From: Deltaproteobacteria bacterium
Lineage (GTDB): Bacteria > Desulfobacterota > Desulfuromonadia > Geobacterales > Pseudopelobacteraceae
Direction: 5' to 3'
NCBI GenBank assembly: GCA_021780495.1
Contig: JAJXYO010000009.1
Coordinates: 1 to 64,000, forward strand
Length of the DNA: 64,000 nt
The translations under genes were made by a program, and so were the position numbers. This document shows, in pieces, positions 1 through 26,266 of this stretch. Numbering within the stretch: the stretch's first letter is position 1; every line of letters starts with the position of its first letter. The notes under the pieces were generated by a model that saw only the letters and a program-made list of their open reading frames with translations, did no database searches and was not told where the DNA came from.

Positions 1-142
1 TGAGGAACATTGCGAAAAAGTGGACGATGCCAATCAGAGACTGGAAGTCAGCACTGAATCAATTCAGCATAATTTTTGAAGACAGAATGCCTGTATTGTA
101 AAAGACCGAAAAAACCATTTACACAAACTGATTGACAGGCCC
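1..142 (+). mobile_element. Right end of an IS256-family insertion sequence
   Basis: The first 142 bases hold the last codons of an IS256-type transposase and then a roughly 40-base non-coding tail. The tail ends near position 142 in a segment containing TTTACACAAA and GACAGGCCC, which looks like a terminal inverted repeat. Immediately beyond it the minus-strand reading frame of an ATPase gene begins, and that gene is cut at this point. The left end and the target duplication lie outside the window, so the exact boundary is an estimate good to a few bases. Confidence 0.72.
3..101 (+). CDS. IS256-family (mutator) transposase, C-terminal fragment
   Basis: Thirty-two codons and a TAA stop are visible; the rest lies to the left of the window. 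The peptide contains [18 protein letters not shown] followed by FEDRMPVL. This matches the conserved C-terminal end of IS256/mutator transposases, where a W-x-x-P-I-R-D-W-K pattern precedes the final residues. The protein would be a DDE transposase acting on its own terminal repeats. Whether the full gene is intact cannot be judged from here. Confidence 0.75.
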
Positions 143-1425
143 AGACTCGCGGTTTCCGCGCACCTCAATATCTCGTCGTTATCTGCATGTTTTTGAACAA
201 ATAGACGTTTAAACAATTCAGAATCGCGCAGTTGGGCAAGTTCACCCGTGGTCTCAGTTGAAAATGCAAGAGCGTATGCAACCCTCGCGTTGCCATCGGA
301 AAACTCGGCAATCTTGTCGATATCGCGGCCTGAAAGAACTTTGAAGCGGCGTTTAAGTAGCTTTTTGATTACATCATCAGAAGAGCCTTCAAGTCGATAG
401 CATATGGTTCCTTCCGGAAGGTCGTCACGAATGTCGTATTCAACCGTTATGAGACGCACTTTACTGCCATGACGTTTTACTGTATCTGTTAGCCGTTGAT
501 GAACATCATGCCCACAATTGTCAATTACGACAACGCAGTCTGAATTGTCAGTAACTAGCGCTTCAACCATAGCATTAGGCTGTGGAGTTGGATTATCTGA
601 AAGATCTGTATAGACCACGTTTTCCGCATCGAGTTCAGGTAATTCTGTGCAAATGCGTTTGTCGAACAATGCTTGGACAAGTCTAGTTTTTCCAACACCG
701 GAAAGTCCAACAATACGCACGGAGACATTTTTGTTCAGATCGTTTCTCAGGCGATTTATTGCAGACAAAACATCACTTCCTTCATCTGCATTTGGAACAA
801 AAACCTTTACTCGATCATCAACAAGGTATTCAGATTCCGTGTCGGATTCTTGATAGGCCCATGGAGAATAAGGCTGCCAACCGACAAGAGGCTTACCAAT
901 GACATGCCTAATCCAATTCGCAATAGCTGGATGCTGCTCAACCCAATCTGCAATTCTTCTACAATCATAAAAGTCTACGACTACTTTTCCGGATAGTCCA
1001 TTATCAGACAGGCACGCAGCCATTGCCTTGATACGGGCAGAAAGAGAAGTGGCAGATACACTATCTCGTGTTGAAACAATCATATAAGCACCATTGTCAT
1101 TTGCCAGTTCGACAATGGCAGGCCGAAGAACGCCCTTTGGAGCCATTTCATCAGGTATTTTCCCAGGTCCGAACTTTTCCGCCTTTACCTGGAATGCGCA
1201 TCGATCTTTTTTGATATATCCACTAATTCCAATAGGGGGGTCAACATCAACACGCACATCAACGCCACCATCTTTAGCTCGTTGATCGCCTCCCCACGTA
1301 ACAGCAGCCTGAGAAAAACCATGTTCTCTAACCTCAGCTCTGCAAAGGCGCGCAACCAGCTCTCTGGATTGTCCGTCGGTTAGACTTTTAATATCTTCAA
1401 CTGTAATGGAGAAAATTGGATGCAT
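142..1425 (-). pseudogene. PD-(D/E)XK-like nuclease / P-loop ATPase, 3' end removed by IS insertion
   Basis: About 428 codons survive. Residues 52-81 carry D-G-G-V-D and, 23 residues later, Q-V-K, a plausible Mrr-like PD-(D/E)XK nuclease core. A Walker A motif (GLSGVGKT) lies at about 240-247 and a Walker B-like strand (VVVIDNC) at about 298-304, giving a STAND/AAA-like module. The frame is native up to ...CAETASL and then runs into the insertion sequence, reading IS bases to a stop at 64-66. From memory, relatives continue here with a VYSFDGE-type motif and several hundred more residues. The start at 1425 has a GAGG Shine-Dalgarno sequence. It follows the PLD-helicase gene and was probably its partner in a defence module. 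The interrupted product is unlikely to work as the full protein did. Confidence 0.6.
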
Positions 1426-1545: not shown

Positions 1546-4500
1546 CTACCCACCCCGCCGATTATCCTCAAACATCTCCACCGGCATCGGATGCCTGAGC
1601 CGCCACACCACCTTAATCGGCCGGTCGCTCTCGTAACTCACCATATCCACCGGCCCCAAATAGGTAAACGGCACCGTGACATTGTTCCGTTTTTTCTGGT
1701 CGCGGGCAAAGACCAGGATCGTGTAACCCCGCTCTTGATGGTGAATCAGGTTCTGCCCGTCAATGTGATGCTGCGCCGTATTCGCCTGTGACTCCCAGTG
1801 CATGAACTCCCTGCTGATGGGGTAATCGGCATACATGGTGCTCGGCGAGAACTCCTTCTCAGTCTTCTGAAAGGTGACCAGCAGCACATAGGTCTTTTTG
1901 TCAGCGAAATGAAATGAGCCGACGCCGGTCTGCCCGGCTGTCTCCAGATTTGCCCGACCAAAGACCGCCTGAATTTCCTTGCCGCCGTAATGGGCGTGCA
2001 GCTCCAGCGGGCAGGCAAAGGGGAGTTGCGGAATCTGGCCGCTGACCTCGGTGGTATCCTGCGACCAGGCAAGGATTTCATCCAGATCGGCCAGGATCGT
2101 CGGGTTGCGTGCCAAGCGACGGAAGGCATCTTCCAGCGAGGCAATACCAAGATTGCTCCCTTTGTCTCCCCAGATCCGGTAGTAGATCGACATGACAGAA
2201 TTTCCGGCGATCGTCAGCGCCTCGTCAATGGCTCCCAGGGCAACCTTGGCAAGGACATCACGCAGCAGGGCAATCTCCCGCGGACCGTTGATGAAGGCGG
2301 CACGCACGAGGGTTTTACTCAGCCGCGCCAGATCCGGATCAGTGGGGATTGGGCCTAGCAGCGCCTTGGCTTTCCATTCTGACCATGTTTCCTTGACCAA
2401 CAGAACTTCCGGATCGTAGTCGTGATAGCGGATAAAATTGCCGAATGTCAGTTTCTGTCCACTCTCGCTGGTGAAAGTCTGCAACCGGTCCGGCACCTGC
2501 ACATTCAACTTGCCGAGGTTCTCCCTGATGTTCTCCAGCACATACTGCCGAGAGAGGCGGTCGAGCTGAATGGAGCAACCGGCCGGGAGGTGGGGGAAAT
2601 CCTGCTCCACTTCTTTGTCGATGGAGAAGCGGTGCCGGGGGAGGAGCGCTTTCAGTTTGGTATCGACCCGGTAGCGGCGGTGGGTCTGGCCGACGAAGTC
2701 CAGTACGGTGAGGCAGTCCTTGTCGGGTGCATGACGCAGGCCGCGCCCGAGTTGCTGGAGGAAGACAGTTAGGCTTTCGGTGGGGCGGAGGAACAGCACC
2801 GTGTTAATCTCTGGAACGTCCACCCCTTCACTCAGCTTGTCCACGGTAAAGAGGAAGGTAATCTGGCTGTTTTTCAGGTCAGCCAGCAACTCACGGCAAC
2901 GCTCACCATCTACCCCAGAAACAAAGGCAGCAGCAGGGATTCCCAAGTCGGAGAAGGTGTCTGCCATGAACTGGGCATGCCTGATGGTGACACAGAAACC
3001 GATCCCCTTGATGGTGGTGAGATTTGGTTCGTAGCGGTTGAGTGCAGTGACAATGGCATTGACCCGCTTCGTGGCGCTGACGTTATCCAACACATAGACG
3101 TTTTCCAGCGCTGAGGCATCGTACTTGCCGTTGCGCCAGAACTGCTCCCCGTTGATGGCTATCGGGTCGGCAACACCGAAATAATGAAAGGGACAGAGGA
3201 GCTTTTCTTCCAGAGCTTCCGGGAGACGAATCTCGGCGGCAAAGCGGTTACCGAAGTCAGCGGCCACGTTATCACCATCCATCCGCTCCGGGGTGGCGGT
3301 CAGACCGAGGAGTATCTGCGGGGTAAAGTGATCGAAGAGCGGCCGATAGCTGCTTGCTACGCCGTGGTGGGCCTCGTCAACCACGATGTAATCGTAGAAG
3401 CCGCTCCCCACCTGCTCCCAGAGGCGGCGACTGGTGAGCATGCCGACGGAACAGAAGAGGTGCTCCAGGCGGTTAGCCTGAAACTGGCCGACCAACAGTT
3501 CACCGAAGTTTTGGTCGCGAAGGACATTGGCAAAGGTGGCTTGGGCTTGCTGGAGTATCTCTTGCCGGTGGGCAACGAAGAGCAGCTTGGCCTGCTTGTG
3601 CTTCTGCTCGAAGAAGCGTTTGAAGTCAAAGGCGGCGACCACCGTTTTGCCGGTGCCGGTAGCGGCAATCACCAAGTTGCGCCAGCGGTCGTGACTGCTC
3701 CGCTCCCGTTCCAACGCCTCCAGAATCCGTTCCTGAAAGGGATGGGGACGCAGATCGAAGAAGACTGCCGGGCCTTTGATGCGCTCTTTGCCATGGGCTA
3801 TGGCCGCCCGGAGGATTTCCGGGTGCTGCGGATCAAAGGGGATGAATTCGCGGCTGTTCCAATAGGTCTCGAATTCGACGGAGAATTTTTCGAGGATGTG
3901 CCCCATATCCTGGGAGGTAACCTTGAGGTTCCACTCCAGGCCGCTGGTGATGGCGGCATGGGACATGTTGGCCGAACCGATGTAGGCCGTGGAAAAACCG
4001 CTGTTGCGCTTGAAGTGATACGCTTTTGCATGGAGTCTGGTTCGCTCGGTGTCGTAGGAGACGCGCACCTCGACGTTCGGCAGGTGAGCCAACCACTCCA
4101 CCGCCGGGGCATCGGAGGCCCCCATGTAGGAGGTGGTAATCAGCCGCACCGGTATATCCCGGTCACGCAGGTCCTCAAAGGCCGGCATCAGCAGGCGCAG
4201 ACCAGACCATTTGATAAAGGATACGAGGATATCCACCCCATCGGCAGAGCGCATCTCTTCCAGCAATTCATGACCAAGCTGTGGCTCCTGCGGTGAGCCG
4301 GTGAAGAGACTGCTTTCTGTCAGTGATGTGTGCGGTCGGGGCATGCCTGACCTGCCATAATGTGATGGGGTAATTTCGAGGAGGATCGGCTTTTGATCCT
4401 GGATCAGGCGATGTTTGTCGAGGTGGCCTCGCCCCGGTTCACTGGCGACGTAACCGAGAATATGATTACAAAGGACGAGGCGCTGCTCCGGGTCCGATTC

Positions 4501-4674
4501 TTCACGAAGAGCCTGCTCCAACACCTTTGCCACAAAGGAAGCATATTTGGCTGGCTGTTCTTCCGGGTCTATCTTGCCGAAAACAGTCCGCAGTTCCGGT
4601 CGCAGTGCCAGAGCATCGCGGAGATATTCGTCGATAAGTGCTTCGTATATGCCGGGGGCGACAAGTTTTATCAC
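1546..4674 (-). CDS. PLD-like nuclease / superfamily II helicase fusion (DUF3427-type)
   Basis: A 1042-residue protein. Residues 140-250 hold a phospholipase-D-like domain with H215-A-K217 and, 16 residues later, G-S-A-N at 233-236 (the HxK...GSxN active site). A superfamily II helicase follows: Walker A ATGTGKT (about 338-344), DEAH box (433-436), TATP (459-462) and a motif VI GRGLR near residue 640. The C-terminal third matches the layout I recall for DUF3427 proteins. It probably unwinds or translocates on DNA and cleaves it with the PLD domain. The GTG start at 4674 is preceded by AAGG. It sits downstream of a toxin-antitoxin locus and upstream of the IS-interrupted ATPase, consistent with defence, but its substrate is not known to me. 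Confidence 0.8.
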   Translation of the reverse strand: MIKLVAPGIYEALIDEYLRDALALRPELRTVFGKIDPEEQPAKYASFVAKVLEQALREESDPEQRLVLCNHILGYVASEPGRGHLDKHRLIQDQKPILLEITPSHYGRSGMPRPHTSLTESSLFTGSPQEPQLGHELLEEMRSADGVDILVSFIKWSGLRLLMPAFEDLRDRDIPVRLITTSYMGASDAPAVEWLAHLPNVEVRVSYDTERTRLHAKAYHFKRNSGFSTAYIGSANMSHAAITSGLEWNLKVTSQDMGHILEKFSVEFETYWNSREFIPFDPQHPEILRAAIAHGKERIKGPAVFFDLRPHPFQERILEALERERSSHDRWRNLVIAATGTGKTVVAAFDFKRFFEQKHKQAKLLFVAHRQEILQQAQATFANVLRDQNFGELLVGQFQANRLEHLFCSVGMLTSRRLWEQVGSGFYDYIVVDEAHHGVASSYRPLFDHFTPQILLGLTATPERMDGDNVAADFGNRFAAEIRLPEALEEKLLCPFHYFGVADPIAINGEQFWRNGKYDASALENVYVLDNVSATKRVNAIVTALNRYEPNLTTIKGIGFCVTIRHAQFMADTFSDLGIPAAAFVSGVDGERCRELLADLKNSQITFLFTVDKLSEGVDVPEINTVLFLRPTESLTVFLQQLGRGLRHAPDKDCLTVLDFVGQTHRRYRVDTKLKALLPRHRFSIDKEVEQDFPHLPAGCSIQLDRLSRQYVLENIRENLGKLNVQVPDRLQTFTSESGQKLTFGNFIRYHDYDPEVLLVKETWSEWKAKALLGPIPTDPDLARLSKTLVRAAFINGPREIALLRDVLAKVALGAIDEALTIAGNSVMSIYYRIWGDKGSNLGIASLEDAFRRLARNPTILADLDEILAWSQDTTEVSGQIPQLPFACPLELHAHYGGKEIQAVFGRANLETAGQTGVGSFHFADKKTYVLLVTFQKTEKEFSPSTMYADYPISREFMHWESQANTAQHHIDGQNLIHHQERGYTILVFARDQKKRNNVTVPFTYLGPVDMVSYESDRPIKVVWRLRHPMPVEMFEDNRRGG

Positions 4675-4709
4675 ATCATGCCTTAAAACTACTCTTTGAA
4701 ACTTCAGCT

Positions 4710-4811
4710 ACAAAAAAGCCGCTGAACCGGCATTATTACCCGTTCAGCGGCTTTTATTATCGTTTGATTGTCTCAGTATTCACTTCATCCCATCCCCTTA
4801 AACATGATAAG
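4710..4811 (-). ncRNA. Putative ~100-nt RNA, copy A of a repeated promoter-leader-terminator unit
   Basis: Reading leftwards, a TTGACA/TAAGGT promoter (4818-4846) predicts a start near 4811, and transcription would end at the intrinsic terminator at about 4714-4755. The whole unit aligns with 26134-26266: the promoter hexamers and 17-bp spacing, the bases just after the -10, a central GGGGATG, an ACGATAATAAAAG-like stretch, and the terminator ending in TTTTTTGTA. The stem is conserved through G-U pairs in the other copy, suggesting selection on RNA structure. The terminator lies about 40 bases before the PLD-helicase start. It could be a small RNA or an attenuating leader. Confidence 0.42.
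4714..4755 (-). terminator. Intrinsic terminator of copy A, likely bidirectional
   Basis: Perfect 14-base arms (AAAAGCCGCTGAAC and its complement) surround a 14-base loop. On the minus strand the stem is followed by TTTTTTG. A T-run also follows on the plus strand. It lies between the CopG antitoxin gene and the PLD-helicase gene. Confidence 0.8.
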
Positions 4812-4817
4812 CGCCTC

Positions 4818-4846
4818 ACCTTACCCCGGCAGCGCCTCCCTGTCAA
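4818..4846 (-). promoter_or_regulatory. Putative sigma-70 promoter of copy A
   Basis: TTGACA at 4841-4846 and TAAGGT at 4818-4823 on the minus strand, 17 bp apart. The same two hexamers at the same spacing occur in copy B at 26238-26266 although the spacer bases differ, which supports function. Confidence 0.5.
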
Positions 4847-4959: not shown

Positions 4960-5238
4960 TCATTTCGAATGATGAAAAGCTTCATCTACCTTTTCTGCCA
5001 GAAGAACCTTCAAGAGCGATTGGTAGGGAACGTCCTTTTTATTGGCCAGCATTTTAAGCCGATCAATCAGCGAAACCGGCAGACGCAGAGAAATTGCCCT
5101 GGTTGATGGTTTCAGGTTGGGAAATACAGCTTCCTCGGCCTGTGAAAAGTCCAGATAATCCGTCGCATCGCGGGTTGCCCAGAAATCCCGTTCATCATCC
5201 TCTGTATTAAATTTTGGCACTTTTTTTAAAGCGGTCAC
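4960..5238 (-). CDS. CopG-family ribbon-helix-helix antitoxin
   Basis: Ninety-two residues. The N-terminal half carries the acidic D-E-R-D-F-W-A pattern of CopG antitoxins partnered with BrnT-type toxins. The C-terminal half (about residues 48-80, SLRLPVSLIDRLKMLANK) fits a ribbon-helix-helix DNA-binding fold. The GTG start at 5238 has GGAGG eight bases upstream. It is the third gene of a brnT-brnA-copG run and has no toxin of its own next to it, so it may be an orphan, an extra immunity factor, or a second regulator of the locus. Confidence 0.72.
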   Translation of the reverse strand: MTALKKVPKFNTEDDERDFWATRDATDYLDFSQAEEAVFPNLKPSTRAISLRLPVSLIDRLKMLANKKDVPYQSLLKVLLAEKVDEAFHHSK

Positions 5239-5823: not shown

Positions 5824-5853
5824 GTCTTGATATTCGTCAAGATACCTATAAAT

Positions 5854-5897
5854 AAAGCCGCCCAACCGGCAAAATCTCCGGTCAGGCGGCTTTTTTC
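5854..5897 (-). terminator. argG terminator
   Basis: A GC-rich stem (AAAGCCGCC-AACCGG against CCGGTCAGGCGGCTTT) with an 8-base loop lies 28 bases after the argG stop codon. T-runs on both sides make it potentially bidirectional. Its stem sequence resembles the terminators of the two repeated units at 4714 and 26137. Confidence 0.75.
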
Positions 5898-16941: not shown

Positions 16942-17544
16942 CTATTTCCAACACATATTTACCCCAAAATGAACCACTCTCAGAGCTACACCACTACGAT
17001 GATTATGAAGCGAGGTAAATGCCCATTGTGCAGGGTGATCGGTAGATTCTCCAGCCTGATCGCACGGCAAGCATGCATTCATTTCGTCTTTAATACCTGT
17101 CATCTTTGCTTCAATACCCGGCGATTCCACATAATCAAAAACGTATCCAGTACGTTCTCTGCCAGTAGTGTATCTGTCAATCAATTGCTTTAACCCTTCG
17201 ATGTGGTATTTCGGGCCATTGTGTTTTTTTGCTTCGCCGAGCCGCTTGCGATGTCTCAACATACAGTTCACTTCAATGGTTATATCTACATGACCATTAC
17301 TGTTTCCCTCTCGAACAACCGACATGCCAGGCATTTCAATTCTTCCGGCCAGGGTTGTTGAGATCGCATTTTCATTACAACCATCGAGATCTTTGGCGTT
17401 TGCTTCAACGTATGCAATCGCTTCCTCAATGCGCCGTTCCAAGGCGGCATCAAACTCCTCTTCGGTTGATGCTTCGAAGAGAGTCGTGACGTAACTTGGG
17501 TTCCGCCCCCACCACGCTAGAAGACTGTCTCGCGATCGGTTCAT
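16942..17544 (-). CDS. Small PD-(D/E)XK-like protein of the hsd operon
   Basis: Two hundred residues, start ATG sharing a base with the hsdR stop (TGATG). I do not recognise a named family. Residues 84-106 read G-H-V-D-I-T-I-E ... G-E-A-K-K-H, followed by Q120-L-x-x-x-Y. This matches the D...(D/E)xK...Q layout of PD-(D/E)XK nucleases (candidate residues D87, E104, K106, Q120). The C-terminus is unremarkable. Tight coupling to hsdR suggests it acts with, or controls, the restriction complex. An alternative is a non-catalytic member of the fold. Confidence 0.55.
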   Translation of the reverse strand: MNRSRDSLLAWWGRNPSYVTTLFEASTEEEFDAALERRIEEAIAYVEANAKDLDGCNENAISTTLAGRIEMPGMSVVREGNSNGHVDITIEVNCMLRHRKRLGEAKKHNGPKYHIEGLKQLIDRYTTGRERTGYVFDYVESPGIEAKMTGIKDEMNACLPCDQAGESTDHPAQWAFTSLHNHRSGVALRVVHFGVNMCWK

Positions 17545-20500
17545 CAATTATCCATCCGCCGACTTTTTTCTCTGTTACGCAACGGACGCCAGCCAACAAG
17601 TACGTTACCAGCCAGACTAATCGCATTATCCCCCAACACACCCGGCGCTGATAAGCCGGAGAGTCCGGTTCGGATCTCGCTGGGAGAAACTTCGCGCAAT
17701 AAACCCTCTGATTCATCAAACTTTGAATAGGTGCTTTCTACTAATTTGACATCATCTGCCGCCAGCACATGAAGCACGGTCACGATATCCTCTATCGGAA
17801 CCTCGCATAACGCCGCAATACGTTCAATATCGGTGAACATCACGGGATCATCCGTACGTGCTGCAAAATGTTCGGAGAGCGCATCCACAATTCCGGCCCA
17901 CTTGGCGGCACCGCCGAAACGCTCTTTAATGCGACTGGTCGCGGCATTTTTCCACCAGTTGATGAGTTCACCCGACTTGTCAATGGCGGGGCGATACGTA
18001 ACATCAAAGATCGAATCAGCCAGCCAGCGTTTGAAGCTTGGATTGTCGCTGAACTGCTTGAACAGTTCGGTGTGATCCGAGAGCAGATCGAGAATGACCC
18101 GCCCCAGCGCCTTGTCATGCTCCACGCGGGCGTTCTGGCGGTCGGACTGCTTGATGGCGTTCTGATAAGCCTTGTCGGCCGCGACTCGGGTCGGCAACTC
18201 CTTGGCGATGACCTCGCGGATCTTGTCTCCGTCCTTCCAGGCGATATTGCCGAACTGTTCATTAAAGGTCTTGATGATGTTGGACAACCGGTCAATCTCC
18301 GGCTCGGGACGGGTACCGCCGCCACCGGTCGGCGCCGGTTCCACTTCCCCCTCCTTATCCTCCATCGACAGACTCAGCGCGGCGCGCACCTCGGGGCGAT
18401 AGCTGTCCATGTCGATGGCCTCCAGCACCCCTCTCGACAAATCCTCCTCTTTTGGCGCTGGCAGCTTGGGGATCAGGAAGTTCAGGAAGATGGAGAGTTT
18501 TTCCCACGCGGCATGGCCATAGGGGAGGATGGCGGCCAGAAAGCCGTATGACCTGACGAACGCCTTGGCATTGCCCTTGAAATTGACTTGCGCGTCCTCG
18601 CCAAGCGTCTCGATGTAGGTCGCCACGCAGGCATCCAGGATCGGGTCCAACTGATCGCGCTCAGCACCGCCGATATAGCGGCTGACCAACTCCTCCACGT
18701 CATCCCAGGCATACACCTGATGGGCGTCAAGCTCATTCTTCAGGTCGTGCAGGGTGTTGGGATCGGTTTCGCCCACCAGCACCGTTGCCCGGTAATATTC
18801 CTGGAAGGCATGCTTCACCGTTTCGGCATTGTCGGCGAAATCCAGCACAAAGGTGTCATGTTTCTGGGGATGCGCACGATTGAGGCGCGACAGCGTCTGC
18901 ACCGCCTGCACACCTGCCAGCGTCTTGTCCACGTACATCGAATGCAGCAGCGGCTCGTCAAAGCCGGTCACGAACTTGTTTGCCACGATCAGGAAGCGAT
19001 ACGGATCGCTCTTGAGCATCTGGGGAATCTTGCCGCTCGGAAAGCCGTTCAGATCCGCTTCCGTGACCTTGCGGCCGTTGAATTCATGTTCGCCCGAGAA
19101 GGCTACGATAGCCTTGAAGGGGCTCTTTAACTCGGCGAGATACTCGGACACCGCCTTGTAATACTCACAAGCCCGGGCAATACCGGCGGATACGATCATG
19201 GCCCGTGCCTTGCCGCCGATCTTGCGCTTGGACACAACCGGCTCCAGGAAATGATCGACCATGATTTCGGCCTTGCGCTGAATGGCCGTATCATGCGACT
19301 CCACGTAACGCCGGATCTTTTTCAACGCCTTTTTCTTGTCATAGGCCGGATCGTCCTCGACCGTCTTGGCTATACGATAGAAACTGGCTACCGGGGTGTA
19401 GTTCAGCACCACATCCAGGATAAAGCGTTCCTGTATGGCCTGCTTGGTGGTGTAGGTCAGCTCCACCGGCGAGCGGAAACGCGGCTCATCGCCTTCCTGA
19501 TATTCTTCGCCGAACAGTCGCAGCGTCCTGGGCTTTGGCGTCGCGGTAAAGGCGAAGTAACTGGCGTTGGGGAGCATCTTGCGCGATTCGATGATGTGGT
19601 TGATGACGTCCTCTACCGACTCGTCCTCCTCCTCGTGCTGCTGTGTCAGCGCCAGATGCATCTTGGCCGTGGTGCGCCCTCCCTGACTGGAATGTGCCTC
19701 GTCGATCACGATGGCAAAGGTGTGCGAGCGATGTTCATTCCCCAGTTCATCAAGCACAAAGGGGAACTTCTGCACCGTCGTCACAATGATCTTCTTGCCC
19801 GAGCGGAGGAACTGCTTCAACTTGGCCGCATCGGTGGAATGGCCAAGGATCGAGGCCACGTGGTCGTAGCTCTTGATCGTCCCGGCAATCTGCTTGTCGA
19901 GCTGGGTGCGGTCGGTTATCACGATGACGGAATCGAAGATCTCCTTCTCATCCGGCAGCCCCTTCTGCTTCAGCCCCACCAGTTGATGCGCCAGCCAGGC
20001 GATGGTGTTGCTCTTGCCGCTGCCGGCTGAATGCTGGATCAGGTAGCGCTTCCCCACGCCGGCGGATTTCACCCACGACAACAGCGCCCGTACCGTGCGC
20101 AACTGGTGGAAACGGGGAAAGACCTGCTTGCGCTTCTTGCGCCCCTTTTCGTCATCTTCCTCGACGATCTGGGCATAATTTTCAATGATGTTGGCCAGCG
20201 ATTCCCTGGCAAGAATGTCTTTCCAGAAATAGTCGGTTTTCAAGCCGTTCGGGTTGGGCGGATTGCCGGCGCCGTCGTTCCACCCCTTGTTGAATGGCAG
20301 AAACCATGATGACGTGCCGGTGAGGTGAGTACAGAAGCGCACCTCCTGATCATCCACAGCGAAATGGGCCATGCAGCGACCAAAGTGGAACAAAAGTTCC
20401 CGTGGTTCGCGATCCTGTTGGTATTGGGTGACGGCATCGGCCACGGTCTGCTTGGTCAGGCGGTTTTTGAGCTCGAAGGTCGCCAGCGGCAGGCCATTGA

Positions 20501-20996
20501 TGAACAGCACAAGGTCAAGGGCGAGCTGGCTTTCGTCCTTGCTGTAGCGGACCTGGCGGGTGATGCTGAAGATGTTTTTGTCGAAGTTTTCGTACGAGGT
20601 GGCGTTGCCGGGGGTGGGGAGAAACTTGTAGAGGTCGATATGGGCCGGACCGTGCTGAACACCTTTTCGCAACACGTCCACTACGCCGCGTTTGGCGATC
20701 TCGCCTTGCAGGCGGTGCAGGAACTGGGTCTGCTTGATCCCTTCGTAACCCAGTTCCAGTTGTTCGACTATCCTGCGTTGGGTCGATTCCAGAAAGGCCA
20801 GCAGTTTGACCGTATCCAGCGCCACATCCCGGTTGTAGTCACGGGGATCGCCCTGCACATAGCCGCCCGCCACGCTGTATAACGATGGCTTGTCCTTTAC
20901 ACTGACGTCCGAGGGATCGGATGAAGGTGCAGTCGCCGTCAGGTGCGCCACGATCAGGGCTTCAAGCCCCGCTTCGCTGGTGTCAGTCGTTCGCAT
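17544..20996 (-). CDS. hsdR: Type I restriction endonuclease subunit R
   Basis: A 1150-residue motor/nuclease subunit. The N-terminal PD-(D/E)XK domain has D161, E175-L-K177 and Q191. The translocase domain has Walker A SAGSGKS (323-329), I-D-E-A-H-S-S and T-A-T-P-K. The start at 20996 (MRTTDTSEAG) has GAGGAGG upstream and overlaps hsdS by 14 bases; a longer upstream frame is rejected. With HsdM and HsdS it would translocate DNA from an unmethylated site and cut at a distance. The frame appears intact. Confidence 0.94.
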   Translation of the reverse strand: MRTTDTSEAGLEALIVAHLTATAPSSDPSDVSVKDKPSLYSVAGGYVQGDPRDYNRDVALDTVKLLAFLESTQRRIVEQLELGYEGIKQTQFLHRLQGEIAKRGVVDVLRKGVQHGPAHIDLYKFLPTPGNATSYENFDKNIFSITRQVRYSKDESQLALDLVLFINGLPLATFELKNRLTKQTVADAVTQYQQDREPRELLFHFGRCMAHFAVDDQEVRFCTHLTGTSSWFLPFNKGWNDGAGNPPNPNGLKTDYFWKDILARESLANIIENYAQIVEEDDEKGRKKRKQVFPRFHQLRTVRALLSWVKSAGVGKRYLIQHSAGSGKSNTIAWLAHQLVGLKQKGLPDEKEIFDSVIVITDRTQLDKQIAGTIKSYDHVASILGHSTDAAKLKQFLRSGKKIIVTTVQKFPFVLDELGNEHRSHTFAIVIDEAHSSQGGRTTAKMHLALTQQHEEEDESVEDVINHIIESRKMLPNASYFAFTATPKPRTLRLFGEEYQEGDEPRFRSPVELTYTTKQAIQERFILDVVLNYTPVASFYRIAKTVEDDPAYDKKKALKKIRRYVESHDTAIQRKAEIMVDHFLEPVVSKRKIGGKARAMIVSAGIARACEYYKAVSEYLAELKSPFKAIVAFSGEHEFNGRKVTEADLNGFPSGKIPQMLKSDPYRFLIVANKFVTGFDEPLLHSMYVDKTLAGVQAVQTLSRLNRAHPQKHDTFVLDFADNAETVKHAFQEYYRATVLVGETDPNTLHDLKNELDAHQVYAWDDVEELVSRYIGGAERDQLDPILDACVATYIETLGEDAQVNFKGNAKAFVRSYGFLAAILPYGHAAWEKLSIFLNFLIPKLPAPKEEDLSRGVLEAIDMDSYRPEVRAALSLSMEDKEGEVEPAPTGGGGTRPEPEIDRLSNIIKTFNEQFGNIAWKDGDKIREVIAKELPTRVAADKAYQNAIKQSDRQNARVEHDKALGRVILDLLSDHTELFKQFSDNPSFKRWLADSIFDVTYRPAIDKSGELINWWKNAATSRIKERFGGAAKWAGIVDALSEHFAARTDDPVMFTDIERIAALCEVPIEDIVTVLHVLAADDVKLVESTYSKFDESEGLLREVSPSEIRTGLSGLSAPGVLGDNAISLAGNVLVGWRPLRNREKSRRMDN

Positions 20997-22353
20997 CGCC
21001 TTCCTCCTCGACAGGGATTTCCTCGTCATCACCGATTTCTGCCAGCAGTTCGTTGTCCGTCTCCAGATCTTCCGGCGCCGGAGTCCAACCGCGCACATCC
21101 ACTTTGCCGGTGACCACATCGCTGATCAAGCGTTCGCGGTATTCGCGGATGAGGTCGATTTCATATTTGGTCTTTGCTATGGCGTCTTCCAAAGATATAG
21201 TTTCATTTGTTACAAATTTTGATATTTGCTCTTGCTCAAACAAAGTGGGGAATGTGGTTAGTAGGTTCCCTACATCTTTCGTACTAACCGCATCATAGGT
21301 TGAACCCGTAGAGGCAATTTTGAACTGAGTCTTCGAGTCCACCAAACTGTAGAATAAAAAATAATGATCTAAAGAGCTTCCACGAGAGATGGCACATAAC
21401 CCTCGACCAATACCATATATTTTGTTTGCAACATTCATTGAGCCAACCGGCGCACGCACAGAAAGAAGAATTGATCCTTCAGGAGCTTTTTTGGGTGGAG
21501 TTGGGCAATACTGAACTGGTTCAGGATTGACAACACCAAACTCTGCGCATCCCTGAAGGAAGGGAAAACCGTTCCCATCATGATTGCAGTCGGTTGATGA
21601 AGGCGATTGCCCCATAATTATAGAAGCAATAGTTTTCAGTCTTCGTATTTCCCAATGCTCCGGCACATCCCCCAGCCAGTCGATGCCGGACGGCCGCAGC
21701 CGGACGTTGGGATCAAGGCCGCGGGTGACGGCGCGGTGGATGATGGTCTGCTTCTGCTCGTTCAACAACTCAATCAGCCGCCGCTTGTCGCGGATGAAAC
21801 GGGCAATCTGCCGGTCCTGGGCGCGCAGGAAGGCGACAATTTTGTCCTGCTCGTCGCGGGGTGGGACGAGAGCACGAATGTTGTAGAAATCATCGGAATA
21901 AAGACGCCAGAAACCTTCAACAATTCCTTTTGTTGAACGCCGAAACTCTCCAACATAACTTGGGGTTTTGAACAGTGCCTCGTAGTAATGGATCGGTCCA
22001 TCAGTCACTGGTCTAAAAACCGAATAGTCAGGGCTGATAACGCCTGCTTGTTTCGCATGTGCAAACACGCCAAGATGCGCTTTCAAACGGTTCAAAACAA
22101 GATCACCTTGTTTGCACAGTTTTCCGCCAGCGTACGACTCCGATGTAAGCTGTTTTCTTTTCAGGCTTGTGCTTGGTATGAGGCCATGAACCTGACTCAT
22201 CGAAAGGTGAGTTTCACTGCCAGTTTTTGAGCGTTCATCAACTTCGCGAAAGAGAAAACGACAACGTATTGTTTCCCAGTGCGCCGGAATCGAGCCGACC
22301 CACGGCAAGTGCGAATCCCGATAGGCCGGATAGGCGGGCAGGTTATCGATCAT
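20983..22353 (-). CDS. hsdS: Type I restriction specificity subunit S
   Basis: A 456-residue protein with two target-recognition domains. Each is introduced by the typical W-L/V-G-x-x-P-x-H-W-E motif (near residues 18-27 and again near 213). Conserved helices are GC-rich, while the recognition-domain stretches at about 21190-21640 and 21880-22260 are clearly AT-rich. ATG at 22353 overlaps the previous stop (ATGA) and has GGAGG upstream. The recognition sequence cannot be deduced. Confidence 0.92.
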   Translation of the reverse strand: MIDNLPAYPAYRDSHLPWVGSIPAHWETIRCRFLFREVDERSKTGSETHLSMSQVHGLIPSTSLKRKQLTSESYAGGKLCKQGDLVLNRLKAHLGVFAHAKQAGVISPDYSVFRPVTDGPIHYYEALFKTPSYVGEFRRSTKGIVEGFWRLYSDDFYNIRALVPPRDEQDKIVAFLRAQDRQIARFIRDKRRLIELLNEQKQTIIHRAVTRGLDPNVRLRPSGIDWLGDVPEHWEIRRLKTIASIIMGQSPSSTDCNHDGNGFPFLQGCAEFGVVNPEPVQYCPTPPKKAPEGSILLSVRAPVGSMNVANKIYGIGRGLCAISRGSSLDHYFLFYSLVDSKTQFKIASTGSTYDAVSTKDVGNLLTTFPTLFEQEQISKFVTNETISLEDAIAKTKYEIDLIREYRERLISDVVTGKVDVRGWTPAPEDLETDNELLAEIGDDEEIPVEEEGDAND

Positions 22354-23702
22354 TTGCCAACCTCCCAATATCCGCCCTTGTCCGGTCCGACACGACGCAG
22401 ACGCTCCGCTTTCTTAAGTCCATCAATATTCTTTTTCACCGCTCTATCAGTGATTTTAAGTAGTTCAGCTAATTCCTTGATGGTGATATTCGGATTTTCC
22501 GCAATGAGTTCAATAATTTTCTGGGAACTTTTCTGGGAACTTTTCTGGGAACTTTTCTGGGTAGTTTCTCCGAACTTTTCACCGAACTCCGTGGGCAAAA
22601 CGTCTATGTTCTTCCTCTTGAACGTGGCAACAAACTGGACGGTCCCGATTTCCTCAAACTCGGTCGCCGGTTCCCGCTCCAGGATCATCTTGATGCCGCG
22701 GCCCCATTTCTCAATGCGGTGACTACGTTGAAAAAGCTCCGCCAGCAACTCATTCCGCCGTGCAGAAACCATTTTCTTCCTGATGGAAGCAATGGTAAGC
22801 CCACCATACAGTAAACCGGGACTCCTGATCTCCACCCGGTCCTTGAAGATGGCGATATTGACAGAATCGTACTCCCGGTAGTCCCGGTGGCAGAATGCGT
22901 TGATGATTGCTTCACGAAAGGCTTCAGGATCAATCTCGGGAACATCGACCCTCAACAATCCATCCAGGCGCATACCGATGTTGATGTGCTCCAGAATGAA
23001 TTCTTCGGCTTTCTTGATCAGATAAAAAACATCACCATAAAAATCCTGCATGCTGATGGTAAAGGTGGTGTCCAGCGTTCCGAATACGGCGCAACGCAGC
23101 CGGGCATTGGGGAGAAACTTCTCCGGCTTGCGGGCAAAGCAGAGTACGGCGGCATTAAGCAGCTTGCCGTCTCTGACCAGATTCAGTTTTTCAAGGGAGT
23201 TTGGGATGGTGTCGAACTTGAGGCCGCTGAGCTTCAGGAAGGATTTCAGCTTGCCGGCGCCGATATCATCTACGGTCGCCTTGCTGCAAATCTCCGTATC
23301 CCAGTGCAACCGGTCACGGTTTTTCTCCAGAATCAGGTTTTCCAGCTCGCGGGCGCTTAATTGCCGGTCTTCATCGCCGACCCGGATATATGCCCGGCCA
23401 TAGCCGTAGTAGGGGTGTTCCTTGCCTTCGACCTGCACTTTTATGCACTGCTTGGTGTCAACTGCTGTCTGTTCGATGGCAGGGTATATTTTGGGCTCAA
23501 CATGATCGGCAATCGCCTTGGAGATGTCGCGAATCGTCTTCTCCGAAACCTGCTGGCCGGTGACCGCGCCATCGTTCCTGATACCGAACCAGACTTCGCC
23601 CCGCTGATGTTTGTTCAGCATGGCGACAATGGAGATCACCGCCTCCTTCAGCTCGGAGGTGGATTTTTTCAGTTCAAGGGTTTCAGATTCCTGGAAGGTC
23701 AT
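22350..23702 (-). CDS. AlbA_2 (Schlafen-like) ATP-binding protein inside the hsd operon
   Basis: A 450-residue protein. Residues 1-125 match an AlbA_2/Schlafen-type domain (E-S-E-T-L-E-L-K-K-S, then G-x-x-W-F-G-I-x-N-D-G). A GHKL-like ATP-binding region follows, with I-N-A-F-C-H-R-D-Y and D-R-V-E-I-R-S-P-G. The C-terminal 60 residues form a winged helix-turn-helix, preceded by a tandem S-S-Q-K repeat. It starts within the hsdM stop (ATGA) and ends within the hsdS start (ATGA). Proteins of this type are often annotated as transcriptional regulators. A role in guarding or controlling restriction is inference from its position. Confidence 0.82.
   Translation of the reverse strand: MTFQESETLELKKSTSELKEAVISIVAMLNKHQRGEVWFGIRNDGAVTGQQVSEKTIRDISKAIADHVEPKIYPAIEQTAVDTKQCIKVQVEGKEHPYYGYGRAYIRVGDEDRQLSARELENLILEKNRDRLHWDTEICSKATVDDIGAGKLKSFLKLSGLKFDTIPNSLEKLNLVRDGKLLNAAVLCFARKPEKFLPNARLRCAVFGTLDTTFTISMQDFYGDVFYLIKKAEEFILEHINIGMRLDGLLRVDVPEIDPEAFREAIINAFCHRDYREYDSVNIAIFKDRVEIRSPGLLYGGLTIASIRKKMVSARRNELLAELFQRSHRIEKWGRGIKMILEREPATEFEEIGTVQFVATFKRKNIDVLPTEFGEKFGETTQKSSQKSSQKSSQKIIELIAENPNITIKELAELLKITDRAVKKNIDGLKKAERLRRVGPDKGGYWEVGK
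22517..22563. repeat. 12-base tandem repeat inside the AlbA_2 gene
   Basis: The unit TTTTCTGGGAAC is repeated about three and a half times without mismatch. Because it is 12 bases long, changes in copy number would add or remove S-S-Q-K units in the linker before the winged helix without shifting the frame. Confidence 0.85.
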
Positions 23703-26056
23703 TCCACTCCGCCCCCCACAATCTTGTGCAGCAGCCCTTCGGTCTGGCTTTCAAGCGCGAGGATGTCGGCGCGGATTTCATCCAGCGTACGGAGCGGCTT
23801 GGGGCGGTAGAAGTAACGGGCAAAGGAAATCTCGTAACCGATTTTGGTGGAGTCGGCGTCGATCCAGGCATCGGTTGCATGGGGCAGCACTTCGCGCTTG
23901 AAGAAAGCCTCAATGCCACCCTCCTCCAAAAGCGGCACCTGTTCCGTATCCCGCAGATCCGTGTCCGGTTCGTATTCAACCAGCGCACGCTGTTTCCCCT
24001 TACCATGAGGGTACTGGCCGTAGAGGACAGCGCGTTCTTCGTCCTGCTTGGTTTTGGGTTTATGGACTTTGGCTACCACCGGTGGAGCGGTTTCGTCTCG
24101 CCAGCTCACCGCACGATAGATGGTCTTTTTCTCGGTCGGGGAAAGCTTGAATTCCGATTCCTTGAGGGCCGCTTCGAACTGTTCACGAAAAACATTGTGA
24201 TCGTCGAACAGGCCGTCACCCAACGCTTTCCACAGGGTACGGGCCGTATCCACCAGTCGTTTGTCCCGCAGCCAGGTATCCATGTCCAGCAGCTTTTTGC
24301 GCCGCTTCTCAGGCACACTCTTCTTGCCCGGCGGGGTATCACTGTTCTCGTCGTCATCGTCGGCGATCTCTTCGTTTTCACCCTTCAAAAACGCCTCGAT
24401 GTCCGAGCGGATACGGCTGAATCGGGTGTAAATATCTTGTCCCCAGCGACCATAGATCTCACGCCGCAAGGCTTCATCGCCACTGGCGAAACGTAGACCC
24501 TCCACGGAGTGGCGGGTGAACTGGCTCTTCCAGCGCAACGGCCGTTCAACGGTGATCTTCCAATAGCCAAAGGCCTCATTGGGGAACATCCGGGATTCCG
24601 CTGATTCCGTGAGATTCAGGAACGCGGACATGATCCGCTCGGTATCCGCGTCGGAGAGCTTGCAATTCTTCTTGCCCATGTTCCTGCGCAGCGGCTCGAA
24701 CCACTGGGTGGCGTCCATGAGCTGCACCTTTCCCTTCCGTTCCGGCGACTTGCGGTTGGTCATCACCCAGATGTAGGTGGCGATGCCGGTGTTGTAGAAC
24801 ATGTTGAGCGGCAGGGCGATAATAGCCTCAAGCCAGTCATTTTCAATCAGCCAGCGCCGTATGTTGCTTTCTCCCTGTCCGGCGTCGCCGGTAAAAAGGG
24901 CCGAACCGTTGTGCACCAGAGCGATACGGCTTCCCAGAGGAGTGTTATGTTTCATCTTGGACAGCTTGTTGACCAGGAACATCAACTGCCCGTCGGAAGA
25001 GCGGGTAATCAGTTTAAATTCCGGGTCACCGCCATGTTGCACCACGAAACGAGGGTCATTGATTTCCTTCTTGCCCCCCATCCGTTCCAGATCGGTCTTC
25101 CAGCTCTTACCGTAAGGGGGATTGGAGAGCATGAAGTCGAATTCGCGGGATGGAAACTGGTCGTTGGACAGCGTCGATTTATCGCCGCCGCCAAGGATGT
25201 TATCCGCTTCCAGCCCTTCACCCTTCAACAGCAGGTCGGCCTTGCAGATTGCGTAGGTTTCGGCATTGATCTCCTGGCCGTACAGGTGAATTGAAACCTC
25301 CGTGCCGTGGGCTTTGGCCAGATCTTTCAATTCTTCTTCCGCCACGGTCAGCATGCCGCCGGTGCCGCAGGCGCCGTCGTAGAGCAGATAGGTGCCCGAG
25401 TCGATCTTGTCGGCTACCGGCAGAAACAGCAGCTTGGCCATCAGCTTGACCACGTCGCGTGGTGTGAAGTGTTCGCCTGCTTCTTCGTTATTTTCCTCGT
25501 TGAAGCGGCGGATCAGCTCCTCGAACACCGTGCCCATGCCGTGGTTGTCGAGCGCGGGAAGCTTAACCTTGCCATCTTCGTCAAGAACAGGTGCGTTCGA
25601 AAGATTTACGGTAGGATCAAGAAAACGCTCGATCAAAGTGCCGAGGATGTCGGCATCAACCAGCGTCTGAACCTGGTTGCGAAACTTGAACTTATCGAGA
25701 ATTTCCAAAACATTCGGAGAGAAACCGGCGAGATAATCGCCGAAGTTATCGCGCAATTGCTGTCCCTTGGAACTCGACTTGAGGCGAACCAGCGAAAATT
25801 GGGACGTGTTGAAGAATGCCTGATCGGCTGCATTGCGCAAGGCCGGTTCCTGGTTGGAGACGCCCGCGTCGTCAAGCATCTGCTTCATTTTGAGCACGGC
25901 ATCCTTGGAGGGCTCCAGAACGGCGTCCAAACGACGCAATACGGTGAACGGGAGGATTACATCGCGGTATTTGCCACGGACATATACGTCGCGAAGCACA
26001 TCATCCGCGATATTCCATATAAAATCTGAAATCCAGTCTATCTGTGATTTATCCAT
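23699..26056 (-). CDS. hsdM: Type I restriction adenine methyltransferase subunit M
   Basis: A 785-residue N6-adenine methyltransferase. H-F-T-P-R is at about 197-201, the AdoMet loop D-G-A-C-G-T-G-G at 227-234, and the catalytic N-P-P-Y at 312-315. It is longer than the roughly 500-residue classical HsdM, with an extra charged C-terminal region after residue 600. ATG at 26056 has GAGGGG upstream. It is the first gene of the five-gene operon and lies 78 bases downstream of the repeated promoter-terminator unit B. Confidence 0.94.
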   Translation of the reverse strand: MDKSQIDWISDFIWNIADDVLRDVYVRGKYRDVILPFTVLRRLDAVLEPSKDAVLKMKQMLDDAGVSNQEPALRNAADQAFFNTSQFSLVRLKSSSKGQQLRDNFGDYLAGFSPNVLEILDKFKFRNQVQTLVDADILGTLIERFLDPTVNLSNAPVLDEDGKVKLPALDNHGMGTVFEELIRRFNEENNEEAGEHFTPRDVVKLMAKLLFLPVADKIDSGTYLLYDGACGTGGMLTVAEEELKDLAKAHGTEVSIHLYGQEINAETYAICKADLLLKGEGLEADNILGGGDKSTLSNDQFPSREFDFMLSNPPYGKSWKTDLERMGGKKEINDPRFVVQHGGDPEFKLITRSSDGQLMFLVNKLSKMKHNTPLGSRIALVHNGSALFTGDAGQGESNIRRWLIENDWLEAIIALPLNMFYNTGIATYIWVMTNRKSPERKGKVQLMDATQWFEPLRRNMGKKNCKLSDADTERIMSAFLNLTESAESRMFPNEAFGYWKITVERPLRWKSQFTRHSVEGLRFASGDEALRREIYGRWGQDIYTRFSRIRSDIEAFLKGENEEIADDDDENSDTPPGKKSVPEKRRKKLLDMDTWLRDKRLVDTARTLWKALGDGLFDDHNVFREQFEAALKESEFKLSPTEKKTIYRAVSWRDETAPPVVAKVHKPKTKQDEERAVLYGQYPHGKGKQRALVEYEPDTDLRDTEQVPLLEEGGIEAFFKREVLPHATDAWIDADSTKIGYEISFARYFYRPKPLRTLDEIRADILALESQTEGLLHKIVGGGVE

Positions 26057-26133: not shown

Positions 26134-26231
26134 TACAAAAAAACCGCCAAACCGGCAGCATGTACGGTTCAACGGTCTTTATAATCGTCAGATTTTCCAT
26201 CCATATCATCCCCATTTCATCGCATAAAAAG
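26134..26231 (-). ncRNA. Putative ~100-nt RNA, copy B of the repeated promoter-leader-terminator unit
   Basis: Same architecture and orientation as copy A at 4710-4811: promoter at 26238-26266, predicted start near 26231, intrinsic terminator at about 26137-26182. Overall unit length is 133 bases against 138. The terminator stem differs in sequence from copy A but stays paired over about 16 positions through G-U pairs. It lies between the cinA stop and hsdM, pointing at hsdM, and may be a small RNA or an attenuating leader. Confidence 0.42.
26137..26182 (-). terminator. Intrinsic terminator of copy B
   Basis: A stem of about 16 pairs including several G-U pairs (AAAGACCGTTGAACCG against CGGTTTGGCGGTTTT), followed by a T-run and GTA on the minus strand. 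It would also end transcripts reading out of cinA. Confidence 0.6.
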
Positions 26232-26237
26232 TGCTTC

Positions 26238-26266
26238 ACCTTACTCCGGCAGTACCGGCCTGTCAA
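26238..26266 (-). promoter_or_regulatory. Putative sigma-70 promoter of copy B
   Basis: TTGACA at 26261-26266 and TAAGGT at 26238-26243 on the minus strand, 17 bp apart, as in copy A. Confidence 0.48.

Follow-up and report, generated by a model that had tools for sequence, protein, structure and literature searches.

Background

The closest described counterpart of the sequences reported here is RCd22-AbiF of Clostridioides difficile (PMC12373285; RF03085), where a promoter and an RNA of about 132 nt ending in a Rho-independent terminator are followed by a defence gene reached by read-through. That terminator was shown to reduce how strongly the gene behind it is expressed (PMC12373285). In type III toxin-antitoxin systems (ToxIN-like), an RNA with a terminator placed before the toxin gene sets the ratio of RNA to mRNA (PMC12373285). 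In the pneumococcal tvr restriction-modification locus, transcription is limited by a terminator-like hairpin, removal of which raised tvrR more than 40-fold (PMC6265443). RptR-controlled defence islands carry a common device in front of type I restriction-modification operons in many genomes, namely a repressor protein, encoded by the first gene, which binds TAGCTA palindromes (PMC12255303). The regulators that we found in the literature serve one system or island, and how bacteria restrain many costly, independently acquired immune systems and switch them on jointly is largely an open problem.

Here we analyse a stretch of 64,000 nucleotides (the window), which comprises positions 1-64,000 of contig JAJXYO010000009.1 in assembly GCA_021780495.1 of a Deltaproteobacteria bacterium (family Pseudopelobacteraceae, order Geobacterales). 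It contains two units, each consisting of a promoter, a predicted leader RNA and a predicted intrinsic terminator. They resemble RCd22 in the order of these parts and, as we propose, in read-through into a defence gene; RCd22, however, is tied to a single gene family and has its own AbiF protein as binding partner, whereas units of the present kind precede dozens of unrelated families. A terminator between RNA and gene, as in type III systems, is found in most units, but the tandem RNA repeats and the single cognate toxin family of those systems are missing; direct reading of the window units revealed no tandem repeat array. The tvr hairpin, which would share with the units the limiting of transcription, lies inside the operon of a single locus, in contrast to the dispersed promoter-leader family described below. 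Unlike in the RptR islands, no palindrome was found in the units, and the first genes named are defence genes with no common repressor. Attenuation itself has precedent; new is the sharing of a leader across unrelated defence families, for which no example was found in the open-access papers searched.

Two homologous units in the window

Unit 1 (4709-4846) and unit 2 (26134-26266), both on the minus strand, are homologous to each other. Their parts follow in a common order: TTGACA, a 17-nt spacer, TAAGGT, a G-rich GGGGATG stretch, ACGATAATAAAAG / ACGATTATAAAG, and a hairpin whose 3' end reads TTTTTT(T)G (Table 1). The likeness is beyond chance. The strict pattern TTGACA-N(13-20)-GTAAGGTGA occurs at exactly three sites in the 3.68-Mb assembly, two in the window and one on contig 29, and the reversed-pattern control at none in the whole assembly. 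The third site precedes a gene beginning LSQTPEQEARIDIDRMLLGAGWLVQD, which reads by eye as hsdR-like. The sequence-only reading of this DNA had claimed two such homologous units, one facing a PLD-helicase gene and the other facing hsdM, and both the positions and the downstream gene assignments bear this out.

The gap before the helicase gene measures 38 nt, and a scan found no other sigma-70-like promoter, although the same strict scan also misses the unit's own promoter. Just 5' of unit 1 lies a small ORF (4960-5238, minus strand), CopG/BrnA-like by eye. At 5851-5896 there is an ordinary bidirectional terminator with a hairpin similar to those of the units.

Table 1. Features of the two units and their operons. 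The training sets of models R1 (promoter) and R2 (RNA body and terminator) both contain the window copies.
Feature	Position	Strand	Remarks
Unit 1 promoter	4818-4846	-	TTGACA 4846-4841, 17-nt G-rich spacer, TAAGGT 4823-4818; R1 53.1 bits
Unit 1 predicted leader RNA	4712-4811	-	about 100 nt, putative start; R2 match 4712-4806, 82.9 bits
Unit 1 predicted intrinsic terminator	4712-4755	-
PLD nuclease-helicase-DUF3427, type IV-like restriction enzyme	1546-4674	-	PADLOC mREase_IV; 38 nt after terminator 1
Second gene of helicase operon	64-1425	-	matches N-terminal third of PD-Lambda-4_A
Unit 2 promoter	26238-26266	-	TTGACA 26266-26261, 17-nt spacer, TAAGGT 26243-26238; R1 49.7 bits
Unit 2 predicted leader RNA	26137-26231	-	about 95 nt, putative start; R2 match 26137-26226, 80.4 bits
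Unit 2 predicted intrinsic terminator	26137-26180	-
hsdM, type I restriction-modification operon (operon 2)	23699-26056	-	likely ATG 26056; ORF opens 26095
Operon 2, Schlafen/AlbA_2 protein	22350-23702	-
Operon 2, hsdS	20983-22368	-
Operon 2, hsdR	17544-21119	-
Operon 2 beyond hsdM, total extent	17544-23702	-

The Schlafen/AlbA_2 gene sits within the type I restriction operon; a relative of it stands alone behind a promoter-only site in another locus (L106).

The family and its distribution

A DNA search with unit 1 yielded full-length relatives at 68-82% identity. Two models were then used: R1, a sequence-only model of 24 promoters, and R2, a covariance model of RNA body and terminator. Of 141 genomes from the order, 47 gave R1 matches, as many as nine in one genome and the great majority within the window's own family; R2 matched 39 of the 76 genomes of that family. 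At the cut-off of E 0.01 per genome, the weakest matches of both will include chance ones.

The strict pattern TTGACAGG-N8-G-NN-GG-N-GTAANGTGA was found on 23 contigs among 84,980 species genomes. Twenty-one of these contigs come from metagenome-assembled genomes (MAGs) that bear the labels Geobacter, Oryzomonas, Geobacteraceae, Desulfuromonad- or Deltaproteobacteria. One is from Lachnospiraceae and lacks the RNA body, and the last, from a MAG labelled Chitinophagaceae (L170), holds two full units in 5 kb; we take it for a misbinned contig or a transfer. The two L170 units precede a C5-methylase-like gene and have a YhcG-like gene nearby. A phage origin of the unit was considered and rejected, the strict pattern being absent from the viral contigs scanned. 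A generic promoter of the clade was likewise rejected, because the strict pattern is rare (three in the window's own genome), yet the weaker R1 matches include housekeeping genes.

No covariance model of Rfam 15 matched the window at gathering score, and six unit-bearing loci gave only a chance mir-7950 match at E 0.89, with no match to the abiF motif. A known RNA family was therefore dismissed, and neither Rfam 15 nor the open-access literature searched contradicts the earlier statement that no described family is a match. By these sequence searches the units are a family without an Rfam listing, restricted almost wholly to Geobacterales.

Conservation and structure

The units measure 130-190 bases overall, and those without an insert 127-137 nt from the -35 element to the end of the U tract. 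As judged from the alignments, promoter and terminator are the conserved parts and the RNA between them has diverged: mean identity among 26 units is 0.76 in the promoter, 0.86 and 0.77 in the two stem arms and 0.46-0.50 in the RNA body. Over 79 sites, the conserved block starts roughly 9 nt upstream of TTGACA and lasts until 43 nt past the first T of that hexamer; within it fall Gs at set positions of the spacer, the GTGARGC discriminator and, at the predicted start, a run of four to five T. In the terminators of the 26 units, 96.6% of cells pair, as compared with 36-63% after sliding the arms. Changes that preserve pairing are mostly G-U, as had been claimed for the two window copies, and one A-U to U-G position adds support.

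The RNA between start and terminator is poor in C (139 in 2186 bases, about 6%), with GTTATG(G) and GGATGG enriched or recurring. No conserved structure besides the terminator was seen in units without an insert. An alignment of the body that includes the insert-type units (A5) recovers more conservation, with a recognisable GGGGATGAAA-GG-ATGGGACAATC, so the RNA body is under some constraint.

About 16 units (for example L109, L115 and L024) carry an insert module, AGTAAGTTAGAAATCAT...ATGATTTCGTTAACGCACTATCCTG...CAGGGCTATG, between the T-run and the body. It forms two apparent hairpins by eye and is tandemly duplicated in one locus only (G059 C134). RNAalifold reports no pairs in it because long and short versions are misaligned. 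Comparison by eye with GTTRRRY/RYYYAAC gave no fit, and the reading of the module as an integron attC site was abandoned.

Genes downstream of the units

Behind 49 full units, the next codirectional ORF usually begins 16-130 nt past the terminator. According to Pfam and PADLOC, these next genes are of many unrelated kinds and comprise HsdR, HsdM, mREase_IV, SmaI, Eco57I type IIG, a combined methylase, PDDEXK_3, AbiEi, BrnA, BrnT, ParE, MqsA/HigA-like, YhcG, MNT, PbeA with DndD/DndC-like neighbours, PHP/Ppl, DUF4011/Hhe, PDC-S05 and PDC-S11. Behind promoter-only sites there are also DndB-like, Schlafen AlbA_2, C5 methylase, OLD-like ATPase, KilA-N and HSDR_N genes.

A defence or toxin-antitoxin gene comes next in about 31 of the 45 full units with readable downstream sequence, a manual tally that combines Pfam, PADLOC and a few calls by eye with no automatic rule. 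About 13 of the 45 have another or an unknown gene, such as a Sel1 protein, a Vgb-type lipoprotein or a bioF-like gene. In one batch, eight of ten downstream genes passed PADLOC at 1e-8 and the remaining two were BrnA and ParE; among ten control ORFs taken at positions of chance matches, two matched weakly. The contrast in defence content is large, though the tally is manual and the control counts only ten ORFs.

The arrangement varies. At least two full units are orphans (G024 C22, G003 C101), which face converging genes and have no operon that they could control. Promoter-only copies lie directly ahead of hsdR, and copies of body and terminator lacking the promoter lie ahead of PbeA, AbiEi and dcm. 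One contig (G060 C33) contains tandem cassettes, each of which opens with a unit (at 4234, 5676 and 7153).

The helicase gene with and without a unit

The search for homologues of the window helicase covered 395 genomes of the phylum. Outside the window's own genome, none of 15 full-length homologues has an upstream unit by R1 or R2 (further matches are weak, at most 19 bits). Those from other families are 53-82% identical, one of them from another family of the same class (82%), and one comes from the window's own family (81%). In the four that were read out (L233, L234, L235 and L237), the gene immediately before the helicase is a NUDIX gene, recognisable by a clear Nudix box, and the conserved GIYE motif near the helicase N-terminus lies 14-25 nt past its stop. 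In the window, the unit occupies the place held in these four by the NUDIX gene. Because homologues elsewhere lack it, the unit was probably joined to the gene in this lineage and not carried along with it through the phylum. Related loci in two other genomes (G060 and G003) have units ahead of the same helicase gene, which may represent one event spread by transfer.

Discussion

With moderate confidence, we propose that the unit acts in cis, as a regulatory cassette belonging to one Geobacterales family and composed of a promoter and a leader with intrinsic terminator, from which read-through feeds defence operons. The conserved dedicated promoter would start a C-poor leader RNA of 95-160 nt, and the strong terminator would end it a short distance ahead of an operon with defence or toxin-antitoxin genes. 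The majority of transcripts would stop there and the defence genes would be expressed by read-through, which would set a low basal level for many unrelated immune systems at once. Anything that weakens termination could then raise the level of defence gene products. The family, its anatomy, its clade restriction, its place in front of defence operons and the fact that one lineage has it before a gene which lacks it elsewhere can be read from the DNA; that the RNA is made, terminates and is read through into the genes is what we infer from them.

Several observations favour action in cis. Firstly, units lie within tens of bases of defence gene starts, and where the distance is shortest a second promoter would hardly fit or not fit at all. 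Secondly, promoter and terminator are kept over the body. Thirdly, the promoter-only and promoterless copies still precede genes such as hsdR, PbeA, AbiEi and dcm. The sequence contains what is expected of an attenuator, i.e. promoter, leader, G+C hairpin with U tract and a close downstream gene. The sequence-only reading had offered either small RNAs or an attenuating leader; we favour the leader, but that transcription terminates there and that a signal relieves termination are predictions. A minority of units are orphans or precede non-defence genes, which speaks against a simple story. Further, no conserved antiterminator pairing was seen, the 5' arm being engaged in the terminator with a median probability of 0.9. 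Regulated relief, as opposed to constant damping, is thus left with no visible mechanism, and all that the terminator does may be to hold expression constantly low.

Some specific mechanisms were considered and rejected. A riboswitch-type antiterminator is not supported, since only the terminator is conserved. A leader peptide ending in the terminator arm is striking in a few units, but its reading frame is broken in many. Binding or titration of CsrA at the enriched GGATG motifs fails because the window's own genome and 58 of 60 family genomes have no CsrA (PF02599), a protein that G. sulfurreducens does possess (PMC13407953).

An alternative we consider unlikely takes the unit for a module boundary, in which promoter and terminator insulate swapped-in cassettes, recombination between units shuffles them and attenuation is a side effect. 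The tandem unit-headed cassettes would suit it, as would promoterless copies with the junction inside the unit (for example directly after hsdR or before AbiEi) and the position of many units close to contig ends, which is where repeated DNA is expected. An insulator, however, needs no promoter 5' of its terminator, yet the promoter ranks among the best conserved parts and occurs alone before hsdR; neither a recombinase site nor a conserved 3' boundary was found.

Paralogous trans-acting small RNAs of about 100 nt, merely adjoining defence genes, are distinctly improbable. The near-constant length of units without insert, the complete terminators, the orphans and the recurring GTTATGG and GGATGG, together with the block recognisable in A5, would all agree with such RNAs. 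Against them, the RNA body is the least conserved part of the unit, insert-less units show no conserved structure apart from the terminator, and promoterless copies are still joined to defence genes.

Promoters of the pyrBI/codBA type, with their UTP-sensitive start, suggest a further idea. Control at initiation, with the G-rich spacer, GTGA discriminator and T4-5 run sensing nucleotide pools (UTP-dependent reiterative transcription) or a dedicated factor and the terminator only lowering output, would explain the high information content of the conserved block, spacer Gs and TTTT included, and the promoter-only versions, but it is very unlikely. Neither a dyad nor a direct repeat rises above column-permuted controls; this counts against the idea and against a classical dimer operator, and a dimeric repressor site was rejected.

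That one unit precedes dozens of unrelated phage-defence and toxin-antitoxin operons suggests a common control element for acquired immune genes in these bacteria. It is conceivable, though we regard it as doubtful, that the unit defines an immune regulon throughout the family: newly acquired, unrelated operons would have been placed repeatedly under one terminator-gated leader and would be released together by a single RNA polymerase event, for example if a phage causes termination to fail or nucleotide pools shift. A shared leader makes the question of joint control testable in one clade through simple reporter fusions. Moreover, genes behind a unit in Geobacterales are candidates for new defence systems, for which the unit provides a search handle.

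Other elements in unit-bearing genomes

By eye, genes for REP-associated (RAYT-like) transposases lie near three units (L024, L129 and L154). Genome G003 harbors a second, unrelated multi-copy family of promoter, leader and terminator, TTGACTTTAATGCGGTAATAGTTTACTAACTCTTCG... (L179, L180, L181, L182 and L183), which precedes ParB-like and RelE/HigA-like genes among others.
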